The translations under genes were made by a program, and so were the position numbers. Below are positions 38,509 through 64,000 of a stretch of 64,000 nucleotides of DNA, one piece after another. Source of the DNA: Flavobacterium aquiphilum (GTDB lineage Bacteria > Bacteroidota > Bacteroidia > Flavobacteriales > Flavobacteriaceae); NCBI RefSeq assembly GCF_027111335.1, contig NZ_CP114288.1, positions 1,550,001 to 1,614,000 of the forward strand, read 5' to 3'. The notes beneath the pieces were generated by a model. It was not told the DNA's origin, made no database searches, and was given only the letters and a program-made list of their open reading frames with translations. How positions within the stretch are numbered: the first letter of the stretch is position 1; the number at the start of each line of letters is the position of its first letter.

Positions 38509-39372
38509 ATGAAGGCAATAAAAATTATCGAATGTCCACGTGATGCGATGCAAGGCATAAAGGCCTTTATTCCTACCGAAAGAAAGGTAAGTTATATACA
38601 ATCTTTGTTACGTGTAGGCTTTGATACCATCGATTTTGGGAGTTTTGTCTCGGCGAAAGCCATACCTCAAATGCAAGATACTGCCGAAGTTTTGGAACAG
38701 CTCGATTTGTCCAAAACCAAGAGTAAATTATTGGCCATCATAGCCAATGTTCAGGGAGCTACTCAGGCATCTCAACATGCTGCTATTCAATATTTGGGTT
38801 TTCCCTTTTCAATTTCTGAGAATTTTCAAATGCGAAATACGCATAAGACTATCGCGGAATCTTTAGTCACATTAGACGAAATTCTAAATCTTGCCAGTAA
38901 GACCAATAAAGAAACCGTTGCATATCTTTCGATGGGTTTTGGAAATCCGTATGGAGATCCATGGAATGTTGAAATTGTAGCACAATGGACTGAAAAATTA
39001 GCCTCAATGGGAGTGAAGATTTTATCGCTTTCTGATACTATTGGAAGTTCTACTCCCGAAGTGATAGAATATTTATTTTCTAATCTGATTCCTCAATATC
39101 CACAAATAGAATTCGGTGCCCATCTTCACACGACTCCAGACAAATGGCTAGAGAAAATCGATGCAGCCTATAAAGGAGGTTGCAGGCGTTTTGATGGGGC
39201 CATTCAGGGATTTGGAGGTTGTCCCATGGCTACTGATAAATTGACAGGCAATATGCCTACAGAAAAATTGCTGTCTTATTTTACAGTTCAAAAAGAAAAG
39301 ACCAATTGCAGTCCAATGAGTTTTGAAAGCGCTTATAACGAAGCTTCCAAACTATTTGGTGAATTTCATTGA
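38509..39372 (+). CDS. Hydroxymethylglutaryl-CoA lyase
   Basis: 287 residues from the ATG at 38509 (MKAIKIIECPRDAMQG). A TIM-barrel acyl-CoA lyase that cleaves HMG-CoA to acetoacetate and acetyl-CoA at the end of leucine degradation. The N-terminal CPRDAMQG holds the Arg-Asp pair, FGSFVSAKAIPQM is typical, HLHTTPD carries the metal His pair, and FGGCPMATDKLTGNMPTE contains the catalytic loop Cys. It is 57 nt after pyrD and could be co-transcribed with it. Related DRE-TIM aldolases are an alternative but less likely. Confidence 0.9.
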   Translation: MKAIKIIECPRDAMQGIKAFIPTERKVSYIQSLLRVGFDTIDFGSFVSAKAIPQMQDTAEVLEQLDLSKTKSKLLAIIANVQGATQASQHAAIQYLGFPFSISENFQMRNTHKTIAESLVTLDEILNLASKTNKETVAYLSMGFGNPYGDPWNVEIVAQWTEKLASMGVKILSLSDTIGSSTPEVIEYLFSNLIPQYPQIEFGAHLHTTPDKWLEKIDAAYKGGCRRFDGAIQGFGGCPMATDKLTGNMPTEKLLSYFTVQKEKTNCSPMSFESAYNEASKLFGEFH

Positions 39373-50460: not shown

Positions 50461-50495
50461 TTGTTATAACTATCTCCTAATTAAAGTTATATTTG
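50461..50495 (+). promoter_or_regulatory. Promoter of the CarH-like gene
   Basis: TATATTTG at 50488-50495 is a strong -7 box. TTG at 50461-50463 gives a 24-nt spacer, slightly long. The predicted transcription start lies about 50501, leaving a very short leader before the ATG at 50508. Confidence 0.65.
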
Positions 50496-50504
50496 TTTAA
50501 CAAA
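50492..50504. promoter_or_regulatory. Candidate CarH operator 1
   Basis: TTTGTTTAACAAA is a 13-bp palindrome (6-bp arms, one central base). It begins at the first T of the TTTG in the -7 box and covers the start site. The same palindrome, in reverse-complement form, occurs at 51438-51450 before crtI in the same register. Repressor binding here would block RNA polymerase. Confidence 0.65.
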
Positions 50505-50507
50505 AAA

Positions 50508-51413
50508 ATGGTATCGATGAACAATGTAAAAAATGTTTTCAGTATTAAAGATCTTGAAAATCTTTCAGGGATAAAAGCACACACCATTCGAATTTGGGAA
50601 AAACGATATAATGTTTTACAGCCAATGCGTACAGACACCAATATACGTTTGTATTCCTTGTCAAGTCTCCAAAAACTATTGAATATTGCCCTGTTGCTCG
50701 ATTATGGGTATAAAATTTCCAAAATTTCAACTTTCGCCGATGAAAAAATAACGGAATTGATTCGGGAAGTTGTCTTGAATAAGAATGCCAAAAATCATGC
50801 TGTCAATGCGTTTAAAATGGCTATGATGAATTTTGACCAGAAACTTTTTTTCAATACCTATGATTGGTTATCTGAAGAAAAGTCCTTTAGGGAAATTTTT
50901 CGTCAAGTGTTCATTCCGTTGATGGAAGATATTGGCCTATTGTGGCAGACAGATACGATTACTCCGGCGCATGAGCATTTCATCAGCTGTTTGATATTGA
51001 AGAAAATATTGGTTAATATCGAGAAAGTGGAAGCTGATATGTCTATAAATGACAGCAGAGTTTATGTTTTGTCGCTTCCTCTTAATGAGATACATGAGTT
51101 AGGTTTAATGTATCTGCATTACGAAATAGTTTCTAAAGGATTTAGGGTGATTTATTTGGGACAAAGTATGCCTTTTGGATATTTAAAAGACTTGAAAAAG
51201 CATTACAGCTCAATTGTTTACCTGTCTTATTTTACTATACAACCTGAACGTGATAGTGTTAATGATTATGTGAATTCCATGGCTTCGGAACTCTTGGGTG
51301 ACGGCTCTCAAATATGGTTGATAGGGGAGTTGGTAAAACATATTGACCTGAATTTAATTCCTGAAGGTGTTAAAGTTTTTGGTTCCATACCAGATTTAAT
51401 AGAAAAGATTTGA
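50508..51413 (+). CDS. MerR-family regulator with B12-binding domain (CarH/LitR-like photoreceptor)
   Basis: 301 residues from ATG 50508 (ATG 50517 is also possible). The N-terminal MerR winged helix is about 9-80 (FSIKDLENLSGIKAHTIRIWEKRYNVLQP). A helical B12-binding cap follows (about 95-170), then a Rossmann-like cobalamin domain (about 183-300). Both signatures of the adenosylcobalamin-dependent photoreceptors are present: Trp146-x9-Glu156-His157 and Glu194-x-His196-x2-Gly199. In that family a dark B12-bound tetramer represses carotenoid genes, and light breaks the Co-C bond and releases DNA. It lies 39 nt upstream of crtI. Light and B12 response are inferred, not shown. Confidence 0.88.
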   Translation: MVSMNNVKNVFSIKDLENLSGIKAHTIRIWEKRYNVLQPMRTDTNIRLYSLSSLQKLLNIALLLDYGYKISKISTFADEKITELIREVVLNKNAKNHAVNAFKMAMMNFDQKLFFNTYDWLSEEKSFREIFRQVFIPLMEDIGLLWQTDTITPAHEHFISCLILKKILVNIEKVEADMSINDSRVYVLSLPLNEIHELGLMYLHYEIVSKGFRVIYLGQSMPFGYLKDLKKHYSSIVYLSYFTIQPERDSVNDYVNSMASELLGDGSQIWLIGELVKHIDLNLIPEGVKVFGSIPDLIEKI

Positions 51414-51441
51414 TTTTTTGTTTAATGTTTTTGTACATTTG
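51410..51441 (+). promoter_or_regulatory. Promoter of crtI
   Basis: TTG at 51410-51412, a 21-nt spacer and TACATTTG at 51434-51441. The TTG overlaps the end of the CarH-like gene. The leader to the ATG at 51453 is only a few bases, so the crtI mRNA is close to leaderless. Confidence 0.7.
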
Positions 51442-51450
51442 TTAAACAAA
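51438..51450. promoter_or_regulatory. Candidate CarH operator 2
   Basis: TTTGTTAAACAAA, the reverse complement of operator 1, extended to a 15-bp palindrome ATTTGTTAAACAAAT. It starts at the first T of the TTTG of the -7 box and ends 2 nt before the crtI start codon. Confidence 0.65.
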
Positions 51451-51452
51451 TT

Positions 51453-52913
51453 ATGAAAACAATAGCAATAATAGGTTCAGGGTTTTCGGCAATGGCCGCT
51501 TCGTGCTATTTAGCAAAAAGCGGTTATGAGGTAACGATTTATGAAAAAAATCCATCCATAGGAGGGAGAGCTCGTCAATTGAAAGTTGAAGGGTTTACAT
51601 TTGACATGGGGCCCAGTTGGTACTGGATGCCCGATGTTTTTGAGCGCTTTTTTGCTGATTTTGGTAAAAAAACAACCGATTATTACCAACTTATAAAGCT
51701 TTCTCCGGCATACCGGGTCTATTATGGAATAGAAGATTTTATTGCAATCGCAGATGATTTGCCCCAAATAGTTGCCGATTTCGAGGCTATCGAAAAAGGA
51801 AGCGGTCAAGTATTGAAAGAATTTATTTGTGAAGCCAAAAATAATTATGATATCGCCATAAAAGAGTTGGTTTATCGCCCAGGTGTTTCTCCTCTGGAAT
51901 TAGTAACGGTTGAAACCGCCAAGAAAATAGGTCAGTTTTTTAGTAACATCAGCAAAGACATTAGAAAGAAATTCAAAAACGAACGACTCATTCATATCTT
52001 GGAGTTTCCGGTTTTGTTTCTCGGTGCAAAACCATCTGATACTCCTTCTTTTTACAGTTTCATGAATTATGCCGATTTTGGTTTGGGCACTTGGCATCCA
52101 AAAACAGGGATGTTCGATGTCGTTCGGGCAATGGAGAACCTAGCTAGAGAGTTGGGCGTAGTTTTTGTAACCAATGCCAATGTTGAGAAAATTAATGTCG
52201 AAAATAAAATAGCCCGATCATTGGTTGTCAATGGAAGAACAATTCCATCTGATGTAATTTTGAGCGGTGCCGATTATCATCATACCGAAACCCTATTGGA
52301 TATTCAACATCGTGCCTATTCTGAAAAGTATTGGGATAGCCGTGTTTTTGCCCCATCTTCCTTATTGTTCTATGTGGGATTCAACAAAAAAATAAGAAAT
52401 ATTTCACATCATGCTTTGTTTTTTGATGTCGATTTCGAACAGCATGCCAAGGATATCTATGATGAACCAAGGTGGCCTAGGGAACCTTTGTTTTATGCCA
52501 ATTTTCCATCATTGACAGATAAAACGGCAGCTCCCGAAGGTATGGAATCAGGTTTTTTCCTTGTTCCCCTTGCTCCGGGAATTGAAGATACCGAAACCTT
52601 GCGAGAAGAATATTTCAATAAAGTAATAGACCGCTTTGAAATTTTGACCCAACAAAAGGTTAGGGATAACATTATAGTCAAACAATCATTTTGCAAAAAC
52701 GACTTTGTTTCTGAATATAATTCATACAAAGGAAATGCTTACGGTTTGGCAAATACACTTATGCAGACCGCTTTTTTGAGACCAAAACTCAAAAGTGCAA
52801 AAGTCAAGAATCTATACTTTACGGGGCAATTAACCGTTCCGGGTCCCGGCGTTCCCCTAATTTCGGGGAAATTGGTGTCAGAATTAATAAATAAACAACT
52901 TTTAAATCAATAG
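51453..52913 (+). CDS. crtI: Phytoene desaturase
   Basis: A 486-residue FAD-dependent carotenoid desaturase that converts phytoene to lycopene. The N-terminal dinucleotide fold is textbook: IGSGFSAMAASCYLAKSG followed by VTIYEKNPSIGGRARQ. The substrate region contains FDMGPSWYWMPDVFE. The C-terminal carotenoid-dehydrogenase signature is NLYFTGQLTVPGPGVPLISGKL. It starts 3 nt after the candidate operator and is followed by crtB after 2 nt. The number of desaturation steps cannot be read from sequence, but a zeaxanthin-type pathway implies four. Confidence 0.95.
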   Translation: MKTIAIIGSGFSAMAASCYLAKSGYEVTIYEKNPSIGGRARQLKVEGFTFDMGPSWYWMPDVFERFFADFGKKTTDYYQLIKLSPAYRVYYGIEDFIAIADDLPQIVADFEAIEKGSGQVLKEFICEAKNNYDIAIKELVYRPGVSPLELVTVETAKKIGQFFSNISKDIRKKFKNERLIHILEFPVLFLGAKPSDTPSFYSFMNYADFGLGTWHPKTGMFDVVRAMENLARELGVVFVTNANVEKINVENKIARSLVVNGRTIPSDVILSGADYHHTETLLDIQHRAYSEKYWDSRVFAPSSLLFYVGFNKKIRNISHHALFFDVDFEQHAKDIYDEPRWPREPLFYANFPSLTDKTAAPEGMESGFFLVPLAPGIEDTETLREEYFNKVIDRFEILTQQKVRDNIIVKQSFCKNDFVSEYNSYKGNAYGLANTLMQTAFLRPKLKSAKVKNLYFTGQLTVPGPGVPLISGKLVSELINKQLLNQ

Positions 52914-52915
52914 CT

Positions 52916-53755
52916 ATGAAGAAATTATTTGATGAAGTATCCTTCAAGTGTAGTAAGTTGGTGACCAAGAATTACAGTACTTCGTTTTCTATGGCGGTTT
53001 ATATGCTCGCACCTAGTATTCGAGAAGCCATTTACAGCATTTACGGATTTGTGCGTTTTGCGGACGAAATTGTGGATTCTTTTCACGGTTATGACAAAGA
53101 AAATTTGCTGATTGATTTCGAAAACGAATATTACAAAGCAATGAAATCAGGCATCAGTTTGAATCCGATTTTGAATTCTTTTCAACAAACGGTAAAGGAG
53201 TACAATATAACTGATGATTTGATTCAATCTTTTCTAAAAAGCATGAAACTTGATTTAATCAAATTGGATTATAATAGCAAAGAAGAATATAACGAGTACA
53301 TTTATGGCTCTGCTGATGTAGTAGGATTAATGTGTCTCAAAGTTTTTGTCAAAGGAGATGAAGCTAGATACAATCAGTTGAAAGACCAAGCTATGAAGTT
53401 GGGTTCTGCTTTCCAAAAAGTGAATTTTCTTCGTGATTTAAAAGAAGACAATTTAGTCTTAAATCGAAATTATTTTCCGGGACTCGATTTAAAGTCTTTT
53501 GATGAAAAGTCAAAAAAAGCAATAATCGCTGAAATAGAGGAAGATTTTAGAGTTGCCTATCAAGGAATCAAAAAATTACCGTTGGAAGCAAAATTTGGCG
53601 TTTACACGGCTTATGTTTATTACAAAAAACTGCTCAAAAAATTGGCACATACGCCTTGTAACGAAATAGGAAATACTAGAATAAGGGTTTCCAATTATTC
53701 AAAAGCAGGATTATTGGCGCAGTCTTTTGTATCTTACAAGTTGAAATTAGTGTAA
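52916..53755 (+). CDS. crtB: Phytoene synthase
   Basis: 279 residues; condenses two geranylgeranyl diphosphates to phytoene. The trans-isoprenyl-diphosphate synthase fold is clear, with both Asp-rich motifs: RFADEIVDSF (DEIVD, about residues 44-48) and VNFLRDLKEDNLVLNRNYFP (DLKED). Conserved GSADVVGLMCLKVF is also present. It is tightly spaced after crtI, so the two form an operon. No crtE (GGPP synthase) gene is in the window, so precursor supply must be encoded elsewhere. Confidence 0.95.
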   Translation: MKKLFDEVSFKCSKLVTKNYSTSFSMAVYMLAPSIREAIYSIYGFVRFADEIVDSFHGYDKENLLIDFENEYYKAMKSGISLNPILNSFQQTVKEYNITDDLIQSFLKSMKLDLIKLDYNSKEEYNEYIYGSADVVGLMCLKVFVKGDEARYNQLKDQAMKLGSAFQKVNFLRDLKEDNLVLNRNYFPGLDLKSFDEKSKKAIIAEIEEDFRVAYQGIKKLPLEAKFGVYTAYVYYKKLLKKLAHTPCNEIGNTRIRVSNYSKAGLLAQSFVSYKLKLV

Positions 53756-53947: not shown

Positions 53948-54388
53948 ATGGTTTCCTTTTTGATTTTTTTAGGTGTTTTTTTAAGTATGGAATGTGTTAC
54001 TTGGCTTACGCACAAATATGTTATGCATGGATTCATGTGGTATTTTCATTCGGATCATCATCAGCCGAAATACGCACACACTTTTGAAAGAAACGATATT
54101 TTCTTTGTGATTTTTGCCGTACCTAGCATTGTCCTCTTTTATTTTGGCGTACAGCAAGGGGTGAATTATTTATTTTTCATTGCGCTAGGCATTACTACTT
54201 ATGGTTTTTGTTATTTCATAGTTCATGATGTATTGATTCATCAGCGTTTCAAATGGTTCAAAAATACCAAAAACAAGTATTTGGTTGGTTTGCGTAAGGC
54301 GCACAAAGTTCATCATAAACATTTGGGGAAACAGGATGGGGAATGTTTTGGGATGTTGTTTGTTCCTTTTAAATATTATAAAATGTAA
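53948..54388 (+). CDS. crtZ: Beta-carotene hydroxylase
   Basis: A 146-residue di-iron membrane hydroxylase that converts beta-carotene to zeaxanthin. All four His clusters are visible: HKYVMH (about 22-27), HSDHH (about 34-38), HDVLIH (about 98-103) and HKVHHKH (about 118-124). They lie between four membrane segments. The start is ATG at 53948; an ATG 11 nt upstream in another frame encodes only eight residues. It is separated from crtB by a repeat and may have its own promoter. Confidence 0.93.
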   Translation: MVSFLIFLGVFLSMECVTWLTHKYVMHGFMWYFHSDHHQPKYAHTFERNDIFFVIFAVPSIVLFYFGVQQGVNYLFFIALGITTYGFCYFIVHDVLIHQRFKWFKNTKNKYLVGLRKAHKVHHKHLGKQDGECFGMLFVPFKYYKM

Positions 54389-54414: not shown

Positions 54415-54565
54415 AATGAACCACATAGACACATAGATTTAATAACAAATCATTAAAGAATGAATAGAAATAGGACTATTTTTCACATAGATTCACTATA
54501 TGAAAAGTAAAATGTCTATCAAACTCTTTTAAACACTATGAATTCTATGTTTCTATGTGTTTAAA
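54415..54565. repeat. Intergenic near-palindrome before the lycopene cyclase gene
   Basis: AACCACATAGACACATAG on the left and CTATGTTTCTATGTGTTT on the right are approximate reverse complements, with inner pairs TCACATAGATTCACTAT and AATTCTATG. Words of 6-8 nt recur within each arm. Confidence 0.65.
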
Positions 54566-54584
54566 AATAATTGCACTCACAAAT

Positions 54585-55274
54585 ATGTCGTTATATTTTT
54601 TTTTGAATATTGGTTCGTTCCTAATTCCGTTTCTGTATAGTTTCGAAAAAAGAATGAAATACAGTAAGCGGTGGAAAGTAATTTTTCCATCTTTGGTTAT
54701 TACCGCCTTTTTTTTTATTGTTTGGGATATTATTTTTACCCAAATAGGAGTTTGGAGTTTTAATCCAAGATATCATTCAGGGATAGAATTTTTTGGTTTG
54801 CCAATAGAGGAATGGCTTTTTTTTATTTGCATTCCGTATGCGAGTTTGTTTATTCATTTTTCTTTCCAATATTTCTTTCCCAATGTGGCTTTGAGTGACA
54901 GCACTGTAAAATGGGTTTATTGTATTTTGATGGTTATAATCATTCCTATAGTTGTATTTAATTATGACAGATGGTACACTTTTGTGAATTTCAGTTTGTT
55001 TATTTTGGTTTTAACCGTGGCCGTTTTTAAGTTTTCGGAGGTTTTGAAAACGTATTTCATTACTTTTTTAATCATTTTAATTCCGTTTTTACTCGTAAAC
55101 GGAATTCTCACCGGCAGTTTTATAGAGGAGCCGGTCGTTTATTATAATGACAATGAAAATTTAGGTATTCGATTGGGGACAATACCGATTGAAGACACGG
55201 GTTATGCTTTTACAATGTTGTTGATGAGTTTGATTTTGATGAAAATAATTGAGAAGAAAAATGAAAGTATATAA
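54585..55274 (+). CDS. Lycopene beta-cyclase, fused CrtYc-CrtYd type
   Basis: 229 residues from ATG 54585 (MSLYFFLNIGSFLIPFLYSF); an ATG at 54555 lies inside the palindromic repeat and is not favoured. About six transmembrane helices are arranged as two homologous halves, each with a PxE(E/D) motif: FFGLPIEEWLFFICIPYAS (first half) and GTIPIEDTGYAFTMLLM (second half). This is the actinobacterial/archaeal/bacteroidote heterodimer-type cyclase in fused form. It makes beta-carotene from lycopene and fits between crtB and crtZ biochemically. It overlaps the SRPBCC gene by 14 nt. Confidence 0.9.
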   Translation: MSLYFFLNIGSFLIPFLYSFEKRMKYSKRWKVIFPSLVITAFFFIVWDIIFTQIGVWSFNPRYHSGIEFFGLPIEEWLFFICIPYASLFIHFSFQYFFPNVALSDSTVKWVYCILMVIIIPIVVFNYDRWYTFVNFSLFILVLTVAVFKFSEVLKTYFITFLIILIPFLLVNGILTGSFIEEPVVYYNDNENLGIRLGTIPIEDTGYAFTMLLMSLILMKIIEKKNESI

Positions 55275-55716
55275 AAAAGTAAGTGTTCAACACATCAATG
55301 CGACTCTAGATGAATGTTGGGATTTTTTCTCCCGTCCAGAAAATTTGCAAAAAATAACTCCTAAAACCATGGGATTCGAAATCACTGATTTTGACAACCA
55401 ATCGATGTATGCGGGGCAAATTATCCAGTACAAAATTTCACCCCTTTTAGGATTAAAGTTAAATTGGGTCACCGAGATTACCAAAGTAGAGGAGAACGCT
55501 TATTTCATAGATGAGCAGCGTTTCGGACCCTATAGTTTTTGGCACCATAAACATTTTTTTGAAGAAACCTCGAACGGAGTCAAAATGACCGATGTGGTGC
55601 ATTACGCATTGCCTTTGGGTTTTTTAGGACGAATTATAAATGCTTTAGTCGTCGAGAATAAGCTGAAAGAGATTTTTGATTACCGTTTTGCAAAAGTCGA
55701 TCAACTTTTTAATTAA
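55261..55716 (+). CDS. SRPBCC (cyclase/dehydrase-like) ligand-binding protein
   Basis: A 151-residue Bet v1/START-like domain starting at ATG 55261 (MKVYKKVSVQHINATLDECWDFFSRP), overlapping the cyclase gene by 14 nt. The helix-grip fold pattern is clear: PENLQKITPKTMGFEI, GQIIQYKISPLLGLKLNWVTEI, FGPYSFWHHKHFFEE and a C-terminal helix ending IFDYRFAKVDQLF. The fold holds hydrophobic ligands. Tight coupling to carotenoid genes and photolyase suggests it binds a carotenoid or photoproduct, but this is inference. Confidence 0.85.
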   Translation: MKVYKKVSVQHINATLDECWDFFSRPENLQKITPKTMGFEITDFDNQSMYAGQIIQYKISPLLGLKLNWVTEITKVEENAYFIDEQRFGPYSFWHHKHFFEETSNGVKMTDVVHYALPLGFLGRIINALVVENKLKEIFDYRFAKVDQLFN

Positions 55717-55835: not shown

Positions 55836-57131
55836 ATGTCAAAACAAAAAGTATCGATATTTTGGTTCCGACGTGATTTGCGTCTCGAGGATAATGTGGC
55901 TTTGTATCACGCGCTACAATCCAAATATCCCGTAATTCCTTTGTTTATTTTTGATACCGATATTTTGGACAGTTTGCCCAAAAACGATGCCCGTGTTGGT
56001 TTTATATACGAATCACTTCAAAAAATAAATGCAAAGCTCAAGGCCATTGAGAGTTCAATTTTAATCAAAAAAGGAACAACAACCGAAGTTTGGAAGTCTC
56101 TTTTTCAGGAATATGCTGTTTCGGAGGTTTTTTTCAATAAAGATTATGAACCGTATGCCATCAAAAGGGATTTGGAAATAGCTGCATTGGCAAAAACCAA
56201 TCATGCCCAATGTTTTTCTTTTAAAGATCAGGTTATTTTTGAAGAAAAGGAAATCATCAAAGCTGATGGAACGCCTTACACTATTTATACGCCTTACAAA
56301 AATAAGTGGTTGGAAAAATACAAATCCTTGGCACCGCTTCAAGAGTATATTACTTTAAATTACTTATTCAATTTTTACAGAAGTAATTTTGATTTTCCCA
56401 CTTTAGAACAAATAGGTTTCGAAGAAAATAACATAAAAGTAATTCCTTATAAGCTCACAGAGATTGCAAATTACCATGAAACCCGTGATTTTCCTGCTAT
56501 AGACAGCACTTCATACCTTTCACCTCATTTGCGTTTTGGGACAGTGAGTATTCGGAAATTGGTTAATTGGGCGGCTCAGGAAAATGCTGTTTTTTTGAGT
56601 GAATTGATTTGGCGTGAATTCTTTATGCAAATTTTGTTTTGCTTTCCGAAAGTGGTCAATCATAATTTCAAATCGGCTTATGACGGAATTCAATGGCGAA
56701 ATAATGAAGAAGATTTTAAGCGTTGGTGTACAGGGAACACAGGTTATCCTATGGTCGATGCGGGGATGAGGCAACTCAATGAAACGGGTTATATGCACAA
56801 CAGGGTACGCATGGTGGTAGCAAGTTTTTTGTGCAAACATTTGCTTATCAATTGGCAATGGGGTGAAGCCTATTTTGCCGAAAAACTGTTGGATTATGAT
56901 TTGTCGGCCAATGTCGGAAATTGGCAATGGGCGGCAGGAACGGGCTGTGATGCGGCACCTTATTTCAGGGTTTTTAATCCCGATATCCAACTCAAAAAGT
57001 TTGATGAAAAAGGAATTTATATCCGCAAATGGATTCCCGAATTTGATCTGGGTTACTGCGAACCGATGGTTGATCACGCTTTTGCACGGGATAGGGCAAT
57101 TGCTACTTATAAGGCGGGGGGTTTAAACTGA
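55836..57131 (+). CDS. phrB: Deoxyribodipyrimidine photo-lyase / cryptochrome family
   Basis: 431 residues. Repairs UV-made cyclobutane pyrimidine dimers with blue light. The N-terminal antenna-binding alpha/beta domain (about 1-130) begins IFWFRRDLRLEDNVALYHAL. The FAD-binding helical domain (about 215-430) has ELIWREFF, FKRWCTGNTGYPMVDAGMRQL, the TGYMHNRVRMVVASFL DNA/flavin segment and LDYDLSANVGNWQWAAGTGCDA with the Trp-rich electron-transfer region. It fits a class I photolyase, but a DASH/cryptochrome-like variant is possible. It is the last gene of the carotenoid block. Confidence 0.93.
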   Translation: MSKQKVSIFWFRRDLRLEDNVALYHALQSKYPVIPLFIFDTDILDSLPKNDARVGFIYESLQKINAKLKAIESSILIKKGTTTEVWKSLFQEYAVSEVFFNKDYEPYAIKRDLEIAALAKTNHAQCFSFKDQVIFEEKEIIKADGTPYTIYTPYKNKWLEKYKSLAPLQEYITLNYLFNFYRSNFDFPTLEQIGFEENNIKVIPYKLTEIANYHETRDFPAIDSTSYLSPHLRFGTVSIRKLVNWAAQENAVFLSELIWREFFMQILFCFPKVVNHNFKSAYDGIQWRNNEEDFKRWCTGNTGYPMVDAGMRQLNETGYMHNRVRMVVASFLCKHLLINWQWGEAYFAEKLLDYDLSANVGNWQWAAGTGCDAAPYFRVFNPDIQLKKFDEKGIYIRKWIPEFDLGYCEPMVDHAFARDRAIATYKAGGLN

Positions 57132-57187: not shown

Positions 57188-57250
57188 GTGGGTACGAGTG
57201 TGACACTTGCACTAGCCCTGTGTTGCCTAATGCTCTTACTATCGGGGGAG
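57188..57250 (+). repeat. REP-like palindrome, copy 1
   Basis: GTGGGTACGAGTGTGACACTTGCACTAGCC... (57188 on) is about 85 percent identical by eye to the segment at 57628-57690. The core CGAGTGTGACACTTG is a palindrome. Copies in direct orientation flank the 21-bp tandem repeat array. Confidence 0.6.
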
Positions 57251-57252
57251 TT

Positions 57253-57462
57253 CCTATGATTTTGATAGGAGCTCCTATAGTTTTGGTAGGATCTCCTATG
57301 ATTTTGGTAGGTGTTCCTATAGTTTTGGTAGGCGTTCCTATAGTTTTGGTAGGTGTTCCTATGATTTTGATAGGCGTTCCTATAGTTTTGGTAGGATCTC
57401 CTATGATTTTGGTAGGCGTTCCTATGATTTTGATAGGAGCTCCTATAGTTTTGGTAGGAGCT
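57253..57462 (+). repeat. Ten 21-bp tandem repeats (minisatellite)
   Basis: Ten head-to-tail units of exactly 21 bp in two main versions: CCTATGATTTTGATAGG + AGCT/CGTT and CCTATAGTTTTGGTAGG + ATCT/TGTT-type tails. Each unit contains a small CCTAT...ATAGG dyad. Because 21 is a multiple of three, the plus strand can be read as a heptapeptide repeat P-(M/I)-(I/V)-L-(I/V)-G-(A/S/V), giving an 85-codon open frame from 57220. No start or ribosome site supports it as a gene. Unit differences are mainly at the same few positions, suggesting slippage and conversion. Confidence 0.9.
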
Positions 57463-57571
57463 CAGGTTACAAAATAAGCACCGCCTTTTTCTTTACCCAA
57501 GCGATAGCGAACAGGCGAAGCAAATTTATATTTTCTGCTCATTTGTCTTTTTGTTAAATATAATTATTCAT

Positions 57572-59447: not shown

Positions 59448-60866
59448 TTATGAAATTAGCCTATGGAGCATTCCTTTAAAAATAAATCCGTGAAAAGGTA
59501 AAACGGAATACCAATACAATTTTCCCCAAATTCCGTCGGGTCTAAAAGTAGCCGATTGGTACAGGGTATTGTTGATGATTTTGAATTCCAGCCAAGCTTC
59601 GCCGGGTAGTTTCATTTCGGCATAGAGAATGAGTTTGCCTTCTTTTTTGTTGGCATACAAAACCCGCCAAAAATCTAATGCATCACCCGCGTGAATGTCG
59701 TGTTTGTTGGTGCGCCCTCTTCTCGAACCTACGCCTCCAAAAAGTTTGTCGATAAATCCACGCAATTCCCAAAGCCAATCGCCGTAATACCAACCGGTTT
59801 CACCGCCAATCGACCAAATTTGGTTAATGGTAAATTCGCGGTTTTGGATTTCCATTTTTCTTCGGTCGATAAAGCAGTCTTTCTTGGGGACTTTGAGATA
59901 ATCGCTTACGTTGCCTACAAATTGACCGCTAATCATGGAATCTTTCCAACTCGAAGCGATATCATCATTGTCTATTTTGACTAAAGCTTTGGATAAAGCC
60001 AATTCATAAGACATGGGGGTGATATTCAAAATTGAATTGATGCTGTTGTCTCGGCAAATGACTTCGACTTTCATGCTGCTTACCAATGCAGAAGCTAATT
60101 TATAAGAGGTTGAGGTTACAAAGTACAGCCAATATGAGGATAATTTGGGTGTCATTACGGGGATAGTGTAAATATACCTTTTGAGGTGAATTGCTTTGGC
60201 AAAACCTAGAAGCATTTCTTTGTAAGTGAGGATATCGGGGCCACCGATATCGAAACTTTGGTTGTATGTTGATGGATTTAAAAGTGATTTTGTCAAAAAA
60301 TCCAAAACGTCGCCAATAGCTATGGGCTGGCATTTGGTATTGAGCCATTTTGGTGTAATCATTACAGGTAATTTTTGAACTAAATCCCGAATGATTTCAA
60401 AAGAGGCACTACCGGAACCTACTATGATTCCTGCTCTCAATGTAGTCGTGGCAAAAATTCCTGTGTTCAAAACATCTTCTACGGCTTTTCGTGAGGATAG
60501 GTGTTTGGAAAGTGATTGGTCATTGACAATTCCGCTTAAATAAATGATTTGTTTGGCATCTGTCAGATTGATTCTATCAACAAAATTTTTAGCCGAAATA
60601 TGTTCCAATTCATCATAATTGTTAGCCGAACCCGACATGGAATGGATTAAATAATAAGCGGTGTCGATGTCTTTGGGGATCTTTTCCAAAGTTTCTTTTT
60701 TTAAGAAATCAACTTCAATAATTTGTATGTTTTTTTCAAATTCTTTTGGACAAAAAAAACGCTGTTTGTCCCGAACACAACAAATAACATGATGACCTTG
60801 TTCTACCAAAATAGGTAAAAGCCGTTTGCCTACGTATCCTGTTGTGCCTGTTAAAAGAATTTGCAT
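59448..60866 (-). CDS. SDR-type NAD(P)-binding protein with DUF2867 domain
   Basis: 472 residues. The N-terminal extended-SDR/NmrA-like Rossmann domain (about 1-215) starts ILLTGTTGYVGKRLLPILVEQGHHVICCVRD. A DUF2867 domain forms the C-terminal half (about 320-470; SIGGETGWYYGDWLWELRGFIDKL, RPDGIWGKLYWYSVLPFH). Such fusions are annotated as oxidoreductases, but substrate is not known. It is the last gene of the minus-strand operon, 4 nt after the SDR gene. Confidence 0.85.
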   Translation of the reverse strand: MQILLTGTTGYVGKRLLPILVEQGHHVICCVRDKQRFFCPKEFEKNIQIIEVDFLKKETLEKIPKDIDTAYYLIHSMSGSANNYDELEHISAKNFVDRINLTDAKQIIYLSGIVNDQSLSKHLSSRKAVEDVLNTGIFATTTLRAGIIVGSGSASFEIIRDLVQKLPVMITPKWLNTKCQPIAIGDVLDFLTKSLLNPSTYNQSFDIGGPDILTYKEMLLGFAKAIHLKRYIYTIPVMTPKLSSYWLYFVTSTSYKLASALVSSMKVEVICRDNSINSILNITPMSYELALSKALVKIDNDDIASSWKDSMISGQFVGNVSDYLKVPKKDCFIDRRKMEIQNREFTINQIWSIGGETGWYYGDWLWELRGFIDKLFGGVGSRRGRTNKHDIHAGDALDFWRVLYANKKEGKLILYAEMKLPGEAWLEFKIINNTLYQSATFRPDGIWGKLYWYSVLPFHGFIFKGMLHRLIS

Positions 60867-61569: not shown

Positions 61570-62877
61570 TTATTCGTATTTTTTATACTGATTCACTACG
61601 ATATTGGCCTTTAAATCAAATAATAGATTATACAGTCCAAAAAAGGTTCTGTTCATATAGATAAAATGTTTGGAACCACGGTTACCGTTCATTTTTTTTA
61701 AGTTGGTGTCTTTTGAAAATCGTTCTCCCAACTGCGCAATATTTTCAAAAAATTCAGCATCCGAAAAATCAAATGTTTCTCCTTGAAACGGTTGAGTAAA
61801 AAGGGACAATAAATCATAAAACATCTGGGTGAAATAAAGAATCTCTTCTTGAGAATCATCTGCTCTTAGAATTTCCAGTTGAAAGAGTTTATCATTAAAT
61901 AATTGTGGATTGTTGAGTATTTTTGGATCAACTAATTCAAAATACGGAATGTAAAAATCATTCGGTATTTTCTTCATGCAGCCAAAATCCAAAGCGACCA
62001 ATTGATTGCTGTCATTAACCAAAAAATTACCTGGATGCGGATCGGCATGTACTTTTCTCAAAATATGAATTTGATACATATAAAAATCCCATAACGCTTG
62101 TCCGAGTTGGTTGCCCAATTCTTGATTTTCGTTTTTGGCGGTAAATTCAGAAAGATGAATTCCTGTCATCCAGTCCATCGTAATAATTTTTTCGGACGAG
62201 AACTCGGGGTAGTATTCGGGAAAAAGCAAATGTTCAATTTTTTTGCAAGCTGCAACGATTTCTTGACTTTGTTGAAGTTCCAGTAAATAATTGGTTTCTT
62301 CAATCAGTTTATCTTCGACTTCTTTAAAATACTTATCAGAGTCTTTGCCTTGCAGATTAAACATTCGGATCGCAATGGGTTTTACAAGGGCCAAATCTGA
62401 TGAAATACTATTGGCAACACCTGGATATTGAATTTTTACGGCCAGTTTTTTACCGTTTTTTACAGCAATATGCACTTGACCAATACTGGCTGCATTGACC
62501 GAATTGGGATTGAACTCATCAAAAATTTCATTAGGGGTTTTTCCCAAGTTGGTTTTAAAGGTTTTCAAAACTAATGGAGCCGAAAGCGGCGGTACCGAAA
62601 ACTGAGACAAGGAAAATTTCTCAACATAAGCCTGTGGCAGGAAACTTTTGTCCATACTCAGCATTTGAGCGACTTTGAGTGCACTTCCTTTTAAACTCTT
62701 CAAACCATCGTAAATGTCTTCGGCATTATTTTCGTTGAGTTTGTCCCGACTCAAATCAGAATTGACTATTTTTTCCCCATAATATTTCAAATAATTTACG
62801 CCGACTTTAGCACCAGTTTGCACTAGTTTTGATGCTCTTTCAATTTTGGAAGTTGGAATGTAATCTATCGTTTTCAT
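61570..62877 (-). CDS. ABC1/UbiB-type atypical protein kinase
   Basis: 435 residues of the ABC1/ADCK/UbiB family. The A-rich-loop equivalent AASIGQVHIAVKNGKKLAVKIQYPG has the conserved Lys. The catalytic loop HADPHPGNFLVND and metal motif ALDFGCMKKIP are present. The N-terminal KxGQ motif typical of the family reads LKVAQMLS (Lys68-Ala70-Gln71), so Gly is Ala. The members regulate quinone or lipid metabolism, often under oxidative stress. Its start codon overlaps the stop of the TetR gene. Confidence 0.88.
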   Translation of the reverse strand: MKTIDYIPTSKIERASKLVQTGAKVGVNYLKYYGEKIVNSDLSRDKLNENNAEDIYDGLKSLKGSALKVAQMLSMDKSFLPQAYVEKFSLSQFSVPPLSAPLVLKTFKTNLGKTPNEIFDEFNPNSVNAASIGQVHIAVKNGKKLAVKIQYPGVANSISSDLALVKPIAIRMFNLQGKDSDKYFKEVEDKLIEETNYLLELQQSQEIVAACKKIEHLLFPEYYPEFSSEKIITMDWMTGIHLSEFTAKNENQELGNQLGQALWDFYMYQIHILRKVHADPHPGNFLVNDSNQLVALDFGCMKKIPNDFYIPYFELVDPKILNNPQLFNDKLFQLEILRADDSQEEILYFTQMFYDLLSLFTQPFQGETFDFSDAEFFENIAQLGERFSKDTNLKKMNGNRGSKHFIYMNRTFFGLYNLLFDLKANIVVNQYKKYE

Positions 62878-63536
62878 TATTTGCTGTTTATTTTTTCTTT
62901 GAAAATAAATTTTCCAAAATCAATTAGACTGTCAATGGGTGTAATGTCAATTAGTTCGAAAGAAACTTTAACCGATTTTTCAATGTAGATATCCGTTTTT
63001 TCAAAGGAAGGAGAAGAATCTTCCATCCAAAATTTTAAGGTTAACAGAAATTGAATCCAAAACGATTCTGTTAATACTTTTTCTTGGTATTGCTGTAGTT
63101 TTTCAATCTTAATGCGGAAATCATCTGTAATTATTTCGGAAATATAGTCTTTGAATTTATTTCTTAACTCGGATAAAAGCATTAGGTTTTCCAGTTGATT
63201 TTGATGTTGTTTCAAAGTCATGACTACGTAACTTCTATTGGCGGTAATTAATTCGAAGAAAGTGAAGTAAAAGCTCAAAAGTTTGGTTTTCATATCGTAA
63301 CTTTCGTAATTATCATCTTTTTGTAATAGCTCGATTGTTTTATCAAAAAAAACATTGAATATTTCTTTTTCGATACTTTCGAGTGTGCCAAAAAAGGTAT
63401 AGAATTCGGCTTCTGTAAAGCCATTTACTTTTGAAAAATGAAATACAGACTTTGGTTTTTCATCGTGTTCTAATGTATAGTTCATATACATTGACAGAAT
63501 AAGGTCTTTGGATAAATTTATTTTTTTAGTTGCCAT
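62877..63536 (-). CDS. TetR-like transcriptional regulator
   Basis: 219 residues. The N-terminal DNA-binding three-helix region (about 5-58; SVFHFSKVNGFTEAEFYTFFGTLESIEKEIF) has the TetR shape, with YTFFGTLESIEKEIF matching the usual YxxFxxKExL. The remainder is helical, typical of the ligand-binding domain. It is first in the operon (overlapping the ABC1 start by one base) and faces a divergent epimerase gene across a 30-bp dyad, so it probably controls both. Sequence similarity is weak, so assignment is moderately certain. Confidence 0.75.
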   Translation of the reverse strand: MATKKINLSKDLILSMYMNYTLEHDEKPKSVFHFSKVNGFTEAEFYTFFGTLESIEKEIFNVFFDKTIELLQKDDNYESYDMKTKLLSFYFTFFELITANRSYVVMTLKQHQNQLENLMLLSELRNKFKDYISEIITDDFRIKIEKLQQYQEKVLTESFWIQFLLTLKFWMEDSSPSFEKTDIYIEKSVKVSFELIDITPIDSLIDFGKFIFKEKINSK

Positions 63537-63570
63537 GTTTTCAAGTTTTATTGGTTCATAAAGGTAATAA

Positions 63571-63600
63571 TGTTTAACTTATTATTAATAATGCTAAACA
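63571..63600. promoter_or_regulatory. Dyad between divergent TetR and TIGR01777 genes
   Basis: TGTTTAACTTATTATTAATAATGCTAAACA, reported here as outer arms TGTTTA (63571-63576) and TAAACA (63595-63600) around an AT-rich core with the palindrome ATTATTAATAAT. It lies 34 nt from the TetR start, and the -7 box TATATTTG (63612-63619) of the epimerase follows. TetR-type operators are of this size, so autoregulation is plausible. Confidence 0.55.
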
Positions 63601-63611
63601 AAACATTAACT

Positions 63612-63655: not shown

Positions 63656-64000
63656 ATGAAAAAGAATGTTTTAATAACAGGTGGAACTGGTTTTGTAGGA
63701 AAGTATTTAACAGCAGAATTATTAAAGAAAGGGTATTCCGTTTCGATACTAACAAGAAATAGCAGGCCAGATACGGATGGGGTCTCCTATTATATTTGGG
63801 ACGTTTCACGTCAGCAAATGGAGGAAGCGGCTATACTCAACACTGACTATATTATTCATTTGGCAGGAGAAAATATTGCCGATAAAAAATGGACATCCAA
63901 ACGAAAAGAGGAAATCAGGGACAGCAGGATTGATTCTGCGAAATTGATTTACTCCGTTTTGAAAAAGAATAATAAACAGGTTGAGGCTTTTGTTTCGGCG
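63656..64000 (+). CDS. TIGR01777-family NAD-dependent epimerase (partial, 3' end outside the window)
   Basis: 115 residues visible from ATG 63656. The Rossmann start MKKNVLITGGTGFVGKYLTAELLKKGY and IIHLAGENIADKKWTSKRKEEIRDSRI match the TIGR01777 / YfcH-like group of extended SDRs. The substrate is unknown; the family recurs in light- and stress-induced gene sets. The reading frame is open to the last base of the window. Confidence 0.9.
   Translation, partial: MKKNVLITGGTGFVGKYLTAELLKKGYSVSILTRNSRPDTDGVSYYIWDVSRQQMEEAAILNTDYIIHLAGENIADKKWTSKRKEEIRDSRIDSAKLIYSVLKKNNKQVEAFVSA

Follow-up and report, generated by a model that had tools for sequence, protein, structure and literature searches.

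In the 64,000 nt window (the whole stretch of Flavobacterium aquiphilum DNA that was analysed), the gene preceding crtI is highly likely to encode a B12-dependent, light-sensing repressor of the CarH/LitR type that would bind an inverted repeat (dyad) at its own promoter and at that of crtI, repressing both in the dark. The conserved unit is TTTGTTTA-N18-T(A/G)AACAA, and the core common to the two promoters, TGTNNA-N18-TNNACA, lies at 50494-50523 and 51419-51448. We take the dyad to be a new operator variant for a known type of light switch. The protein family, the dyad with its position and conservation, and its co-occurrence with carH are read from sequence comparison, and the features involved are collected in Table 1.

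Table 1. Candidate regulatory sites and genes in the window.
Feature	Position	Strand	Remarks
carH -7 promoter box, TATATTTG	50488..50495	+	fixed offset to dyad, 79/79 N18 loci
carH candidate operator, TTTGTTTA-N18-TGAACAAT	50492..50525	+	N18 dyad upstream of carH, 79/81 loci
13-bp palindrome at carH	50492..50504	.	left half-site plus poorly conserved right side
CarH-type regulator	50508..51413	+	MerR DNA-binding domain, B12-binding helical domain, cobalamin-binding fold
crtI candidate operator, TTTGTTTA-N18-TAAACAAA	51417..51450	+	N18 dyad downstream of carH, 56/81 loci
crtI -7 promoter box, TACATTTG, within dyad	51434..51441	+	fixed offset, 55/56 dyad loci
13-bp palindrome at crtI	51438..51450	.	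-7 box TTTG plus right half-site
crtI, phytoene desaturase	51453..52913	+	NF058655, above its cut-off
crtB-like, phytoene/squalene synthase family	52916..53755	+	PF00494 above cut-off
Putative carotene hydroxylase (crtZ)	53948..54388	+	probable
Lycopene cyclase	54555..55274	+	
SRPBCC-type protein	55261..55716	+	Polyketide_cyc match just under Pfam cut-off
DNA photolyase	55836..57131	+	Pfam domains above cut-off
ABC1 atypical kinase	61570..62877	-	downstream of TetR_C_23 gene
TetR_C_23 protein	62877..63536	-	reads away from third dyad
Third dyad copy	63569..63602	.	core TGTTTA-N18-TAAACA at 63571-63600
TIGR01777 oxidoreductase	63656..64000	+	runs off window; whole gene taken from genome (L337)

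Both MerR_1 and B12-binding_2 score above their cut-offs in the predicted regulator, which starts at 50508 or 50517, and Thermus CarH/LitR is its best PDB match by sequence and by fold, the C-terminal cobalamin-binding fold included. The B12 motifs of CarH/LitR proteins are Wx9EH and ExHxxG. Searched as W.{9}EH and [ED].H..G, both were found in all 81 loci of a Flavobacterium set (the window plus the best 80 of 278 from one scan of species genomes), and they align to TtCarH. Rows of the VIA-align comparison cover mainly residues 92-301 and hardly test the DNA-binding domain. The NCBIfam equivalog model for CarH, NF052513, gave 70.2 bits against a cut-off of 400, so the protein is filed here as CarH-type and not as an NF052513 equivalog. 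The genome also has a cobalamin adenosyltransferase and encodes a second protein with a B12-binding_2 domain. Comparison supports the initial annotation of a CarH-like regulator, namely a CarH-type MerR plus B12-binding protein.

Within the carotenoid cluster, the crtB-like gene reached the cut-off of no NCBIfam model, and family scans of 53948..54388 gave no match above cut-off; we take the latter to be a carotene hydroxylase gene (crtZ), and the product of 55261..55716 is presumably of the SRPBCC type. An ORF at 57220-57477 consists of a short repeated motif (GVPIVLVGVPMILIG...) and probably represents repeat DNA of low complexity, not a gene. Beyond the photolyase, the other strand encodes a long protein of the SDR type that carries a DUF2867 tail (59448-60866); no dyad of spacer 17-19 precedes its gene.

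The initial annotation had proposed as operator a 13-bp palindrome, TTTGTTTAACAAA at carH and its reverse complement TTTGTTAAACAAA at crtI, each copy starting at the TTTG of a TAnnTTTG box, and all of these elements are present where it placed them. The two exact copies in the window compare with 0.06 expected, none of 100 shuffles reached two, and no further exact copy exists across the whole genome (5,054,800 bases; total of two). When one mismatch is allowed there is no genome-wide enrichment (82 matches per strand, compared with 110 when the pattern is reversed), so the palindrome is notable through its position and not its frequency. Although two exact copies in register at two promoters would suit an operator formed by the palindrome TTTGTTWAACAAA itself, that explanation is extremely unlikely given its lack of enrichment across the genome and its behaviour in relatives: of the 81 loci, 3 have an exact copy at carH, 21 have one at crtI, and two (the window and L019) have both. 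Exact copies at the two promoters together are almost confined to the F. aquiphilum genome. At carH, the right side of the palindrome varies (AATAAA, ATTAAA, ATCAAA and AACTTT among others), whereas TTTGTTTA and a partner half-site 18 bp away hold. Among relatives, the carH copy is conserved mainly in its left half, and the crtI copy in its right half and the TTTG of the -7 box. Judged by these alignments, the palindrome is one half-site together with whatever stands opposite it. What relatives conserve is the longer inverted repeat, and the operator is not short, as had been supposed, since a partner half-site lies 18 bp off at both promoters and the unit spans 34 bp. The site is real and conserved and very probably regulatory, with boundaries wrongly drawn at first.

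A search of the window for the strict dyad gives five strand-wise matches (0.07 expected), which fall at three sites. At carH, the right half-site is TGAACA within ATGAACAAT, at the start of the gene, and the right half of the operator overlaps the ATG at 50517 (Met-Asn-Asn); at crtI, the left half-site is the distal element. Relaxed dyads at 38748 and 55942 were taken as chance matches; the second of these, the nearest relaxed match (spacers 17-19) to the photolyase, falls inside the photolyase gene. The suggestion that photolyase would share the operator was not supported, no such site being found in front of the photolyase gene in this window. Across the F. aquiphilum genome as a whole, allowing one mismatch in the dyad pattern gives 23 forward matches compared with 20 for the control, which is no excess, so that weak sites there cannot be called. 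Relaxed 12-bp matches occur elsewhere in the genome, one of them before a thiolase-like gene.

To the Flavobacterium loci were added an order set of 89 loci, which includes Flavobacterium loci and thus overlaps the first set, and a phylum set of 40 more distant loci; the species compared are related and their loci are not independent. Inverted, direct and everted TnnACA pairs were counted per locus at every spacer from 4 to 44, with N18 and N19 tallied separately, so a single locus can hold both. Recurrence in other flavobacteria, which the initial annotation had predicted, was confirmed for the longer dyad: an inverted N18 pair lies upstream of carH in 79 of the 81 Flavobacterium loci (the next inverted spacer occurs in 8); the two exceptions are L019, where the spacer is N19, and L095, which differs by a single letter. 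Downstream of carH the N18 dyad is found in 56 of 81. Counts in the order set, which is inflated by nine loci (L171-L179) chosen for carrying a pair of related sites, are 60/89 for N18 and 21/89 for N19 upstream, and 46/89 and 14/89 downstream, with 8/89 having no N18 or N19 site on either side. The phylum set gave 6/40 (N18) and 3/40 (N19) upstream, and 10/40 and 5/40 downstream, with other inverted spacers in at most 3. At crtI, the only other large inverted peak downstream (k=5, 32/81 loci) is ascribed to the TGTATA of the -7 box. The remaining non-dyad peaks among the 81 loci (carH side: direct k=26 in 35, minus-strand k=25 in 29, everted k=33 in 19 and k=12 in 13; crtI side: minus-strand k=7 in 30 and k=15 in 22, plus-strand k=14 in 13) are read as pairings of a half-site with either the -7 box or the distal element.

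Anchored profiles fix the letters of the -7 box by construction, and only letters outside the anchor are informative. Beyond the anchor, TTTGTTTA at carH has T in 73/81 and A in 80/81 loci, and the rest of the palindrome varies. At crtI, it is TAAACAA, following the -7 box, that is conserved; a further element, TTTGTTTAA, lies at a fixed distance upstream, this distal element having G in 62 of 62 anchored loci. These 62 (of 81) comprise 56 with the full N18 dyad and 6 without it. In 18 loci the crtI site is missing, and there crtI begins 2 to 43 bp after carH and can be read from the carH promoter; no crtI was found in the one other locus. The right half-site at carH falls in codons of the conserved N-terminus, and its conservation could be partly protein-driven. 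The carH half-site keeps its place whether there is an ATG at +23 (57/79) or only at +20 (22/79), which speaks against the start codon as its sole cause.

Two observations concern individual groups of loci. In L171-L177, one group of Flavobacterium genomes, the carH promoter has a crtI-type layout, with a distal TGTTTA or TGTTCA, the -7 box and a proximal TTTGTTAAACAA, mostly at N19 spacing. L053 and L087, from MAGs labelled Ignavibacterium and Sphingobacterium thalpophilum, have a Flavobacterium-type carH, and since the promoter stretch of L053 is identical to that of L050 these bins are probably contaminated.

Relative to the dyad, the -7 box sits at -6 in the carH promoters and at +15 in the crtI promoters, and this fixed placement of TAnnTTTG at the dyad loci of both genes is consistent with Bacteroidota sigma-A promoters. 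As a control, TTTGTTTA was present at 8 of 61 TAnnTTTG sites near other ORFs; all eight turned out to be the distal element of crtI, lying 21 bp before its anchor, and the remainder is 0/53. Comparison among relatives favours the proposal that carH and crtI have a common operator-like site overlapping the -7 box. In F. psychrophilum the -7 box is placed at -12 to -5 (PMC9723704); by that numbering the predicted operators would extend from about -8 to +26 at carH and from about -29 to +5 at crtI. Provided that the -7 box is correctly assigned, the leader of the crtI mRNA (51434-51453) would measure some 7 nt here and some 4 nt in most relatives; the ATG of crtI is at +31 of the dyad in 51/56 loci, a nearly leaderless and conserved arrangement.

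The third copy of the dyad lies between the TetR_C_23/ABC1 gene pair and the TIGR01777 oxidoreductase gene, which agrees with the initial guess that TIGR01777 genes would carry the site. Across 101 genomes of the genus, exact TTGTTTA-N18-TRAACAA matched 365 times in the forward orientation, and its reversed control 60 times. From the matches listed, leaving out those taken for carH and crtI, 59 sites were fetched (one listed site, G040:C27:19751, is outside this sample), and 44 of them are at most 300 bp upstream of a recurring gene family, i.e., one seen at no fewer than two of the 59 sites in single-linkage BLAST clusters, with families named by hmmscan of one representative per cluster. Six others are inside long ORFs and nine are neither in an ORF nor before a recurring family. 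Behind the 59 listed sites are a fasciclin-type cluster (11), TIGR03643 genes (7), TetR_C_23 (5), SDR (5), TIGR01777 (2), TspO with diphosphomevalonate decarboxylase (2), GTP cyclohydrolase I (folE, 2) and a periplasmic binding protein (2), and at four loci genes for a bacteriorhodopsin-like protein and a Blh beta-carotene dioxygenase diverge over the dyad. The F. aquiphilum genome itself has a fasciclin gene with an exact dyad at 4311017. At the 53 sites outside long ORFs, an unselected A stands beside the half-site in 88 of 106 half-sites, and the flanks are T-rich. As far as matching sites tell, the dyad is found again in relatives beside rhodopsin, blh, TIGR03643, TIGR01777, fasciclin, tspO and folE genes, and the regulon of the CarH-type switch appears to reach their rhodopsin genes. 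Between divergent rhodopsin and blh genes, the dyad occurs twice in L301 (G013:C6) and in L346/L347 (G100:C117), at distances of 43 and 45 bp, which would fit a separate operator for each promoter. In L287 and L332, a dyad precedes the gene of a Peripla_BP_2 substrate-binding lipoprotein.

The distribution of sites follows that of carH. The 88 carH-positive Flavobacterium genomes have a mean of 4.01 exact forward sites, against 0.92 in 13 genomes without a full carH match (11 with none and 2 with a weak partial one; control 0.6; one-sided Mann-Whitney p 7e-7), a gap of which part, up to two sites per genome, is accounted for by the loss of carH itself. Five of the 88 have at most one exact forward site. 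Among the carH-lacking genomes, sites at regulon-type genes were seen only in G003 and G100, both 89% complete, where a contig may be missing; in the others the sites are inside ORFs, at other genes, or absent. Outside the genus, 16 carH-positive genomes gave 53 forward matches (control 4), and 12 carH-negative genomes, 11 of them from other families and differing also in base composition and ancestry, gave one forward and two reverse matches.

At unchanged spacing, the identity of the two free letters in the half-site tends to track the CarH recognition helix, as seen in six distant loci: proteins with the helix KAHT[IL]R mostly go with TGTTTA, those with NAHTLRK (2 loci) with TGTCTA and those with NKxLxRT (4 loci) with TGTATA. 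Single TGTCTA or TGTATA halves are found with the common helix too (L156, L158, L172, L214, L217 and L218). This covariation, though seen in few loci, points at CarH itself as the binder. Another regulator, such as the TetR_C_23 protein by the third copy, could instead bind the dyad, with carH as one of its targets, and the sites before TetR_C_23-type genes counted above would fit. Such a binder is very unlikely, since the sites fall away in carH-negative genomes, the half-site letters vary with the helix of CarH, and the half-site equals the TnnACA of known CarH operators (PMC9304148).

Known CarH operators, in Thermus thermophilus, Bacillus megaterium and Myxococcales, are described as three to five tandem 11-bp direct or pseudo-repeats, nnnnTnnACAn (PMC9304148). 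The present system resembles these in its MerR plus B12-binding architecture, the Wx9EH/ExHxxG motifs, fold, TnnACA half-site and adjoining crt genes, but has two facing TnnACA elements with N18 (in some cases N19) between them, and a promoter of the Bacteroidota -7 box type. From one half-site to the other, the TnnA cores are exactly 22 bp apart, two 11-bp steps (half-site centres, 24 bp), and a weak TnnA lies midway in the same step. Recurrence of TnnA at 11-bp steps, with a weak middle one, would also be expected of a canonical operator of three or four tandem direct repeats, nnnnTnnACAn, most of them degenerate, and the crtI promoter in the window does have one TGTACA/TAAACA pair 11 bp apart, as do 6/81 loci. 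We regard this as very unlikely: TnnACA pairs in 11-bp tandem (k=5 direct) are near background in the 81 loci (4 and 8 upstream, 6 and 0 downstream) and near only 1 of the 53 sites outside long ORFs, and the left half-site is TGTTTA even where it is not part of the -7 box, as in the crtI distal element with its invariant G.

The nearest known geometry to the inverted N18 pair is that of the Pseudomonas class II LitR proteins PplR1/PmlR2, described as a repressor of light-induced genes at T(G/A)TACA-N12-TGTA(C/T)A, with PmlR2 answering to a LOV protein (PMC9758184). The spaced pair of elements is shared, but the class II sites have N12 and a self-palindromic TGTACA, and here there are N18, an asymmetric TGTTTA/TAAACA and intact B12 motifs. 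Inverted TGTNNA-N12-TNNACA is present upstream in 1 of the 81 loci, against 79 for N18. In terms of sequence, the N18 dyad matches the half-site of known CarH and the spaced layout of class II LitR. For CarA of Myxococcus xanthus, palindromes were likewise once proposed as the operator, but the protein is B12-independent and has been suggested to read direct and not inverted repeats (PMC9304148). Among flavobacteria, earlier work notes a MerR gene at the carotenoid cluster (PMC11855829, PMC4732338), and in Chryseobacterium light-induced carotenoids have been tentatively linked to a CarA/LitR-like gene (PMC7064467). In the open-licence literature no description of the operator was found, in line with the initial suspicion that it had not been described.

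We infer binding and repression by CarH, its contacts and its response to light and B12 as follows. CarH would bind the two inverted TnnACA half-sites, TTTGTTTA-N18-TRAACAA, at the carH and crtI promoters. In the dark, an oligomer loaded with adenosylcobalamin would sit on both half-sites, covering the -7 box and start region at both promoters and keeping RNA polymerase off; in the light, the cobalt-carbon bond would break, the oligomer fall apart, and carH and the crt genes be transcribed. Dark binding by the AdoCbl oligomer and release by light are carried over by analogy from known CarH; in TtCarH, repeats 1 and 3 are occupied by a single head-to-tail dimer (PMC9304148). Because the half-site cores are 22 bp apart, twice the 11-bp pitch, and a TtCarH dimer occupies repeats 1 and 3, we conjecture that a CarH-type assembly may keep the 11-bp pitch with one outer DNA-binding domain reversed.

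Flavobacteria are common in sunlit waters, many of them probably must take up vitamin B12, and the light induction of their carotenoids and rhodopsin is poorly known. A defined operator makes this testable at base resolution, allows a light regulon to be read from genomes alone, and provides a link to vitamin B12; if the Peripla_BP_2 lipoprotein carried cobalamin, the regulon would tie to B12 uptake. With it, a CarH-type repressor would be assigned to an operator whose geometry departs from the tandem repeats that underlie current structural models. More broadly, we consider it moderately probable that CarH serves as the master light switch in much of the Bacteroidota, governing a regulon through the dyad TTTTGTTTAA-N16(17)-TTAAACAAAA, that it controls carotenoids, rhodopsin with its retinal-making enzyme, and precursor and pterin genes, that it can assemble on inverted sites at its 11-bp pitch, and that B12 supply would thereby gate rhodopsin phototrophy.
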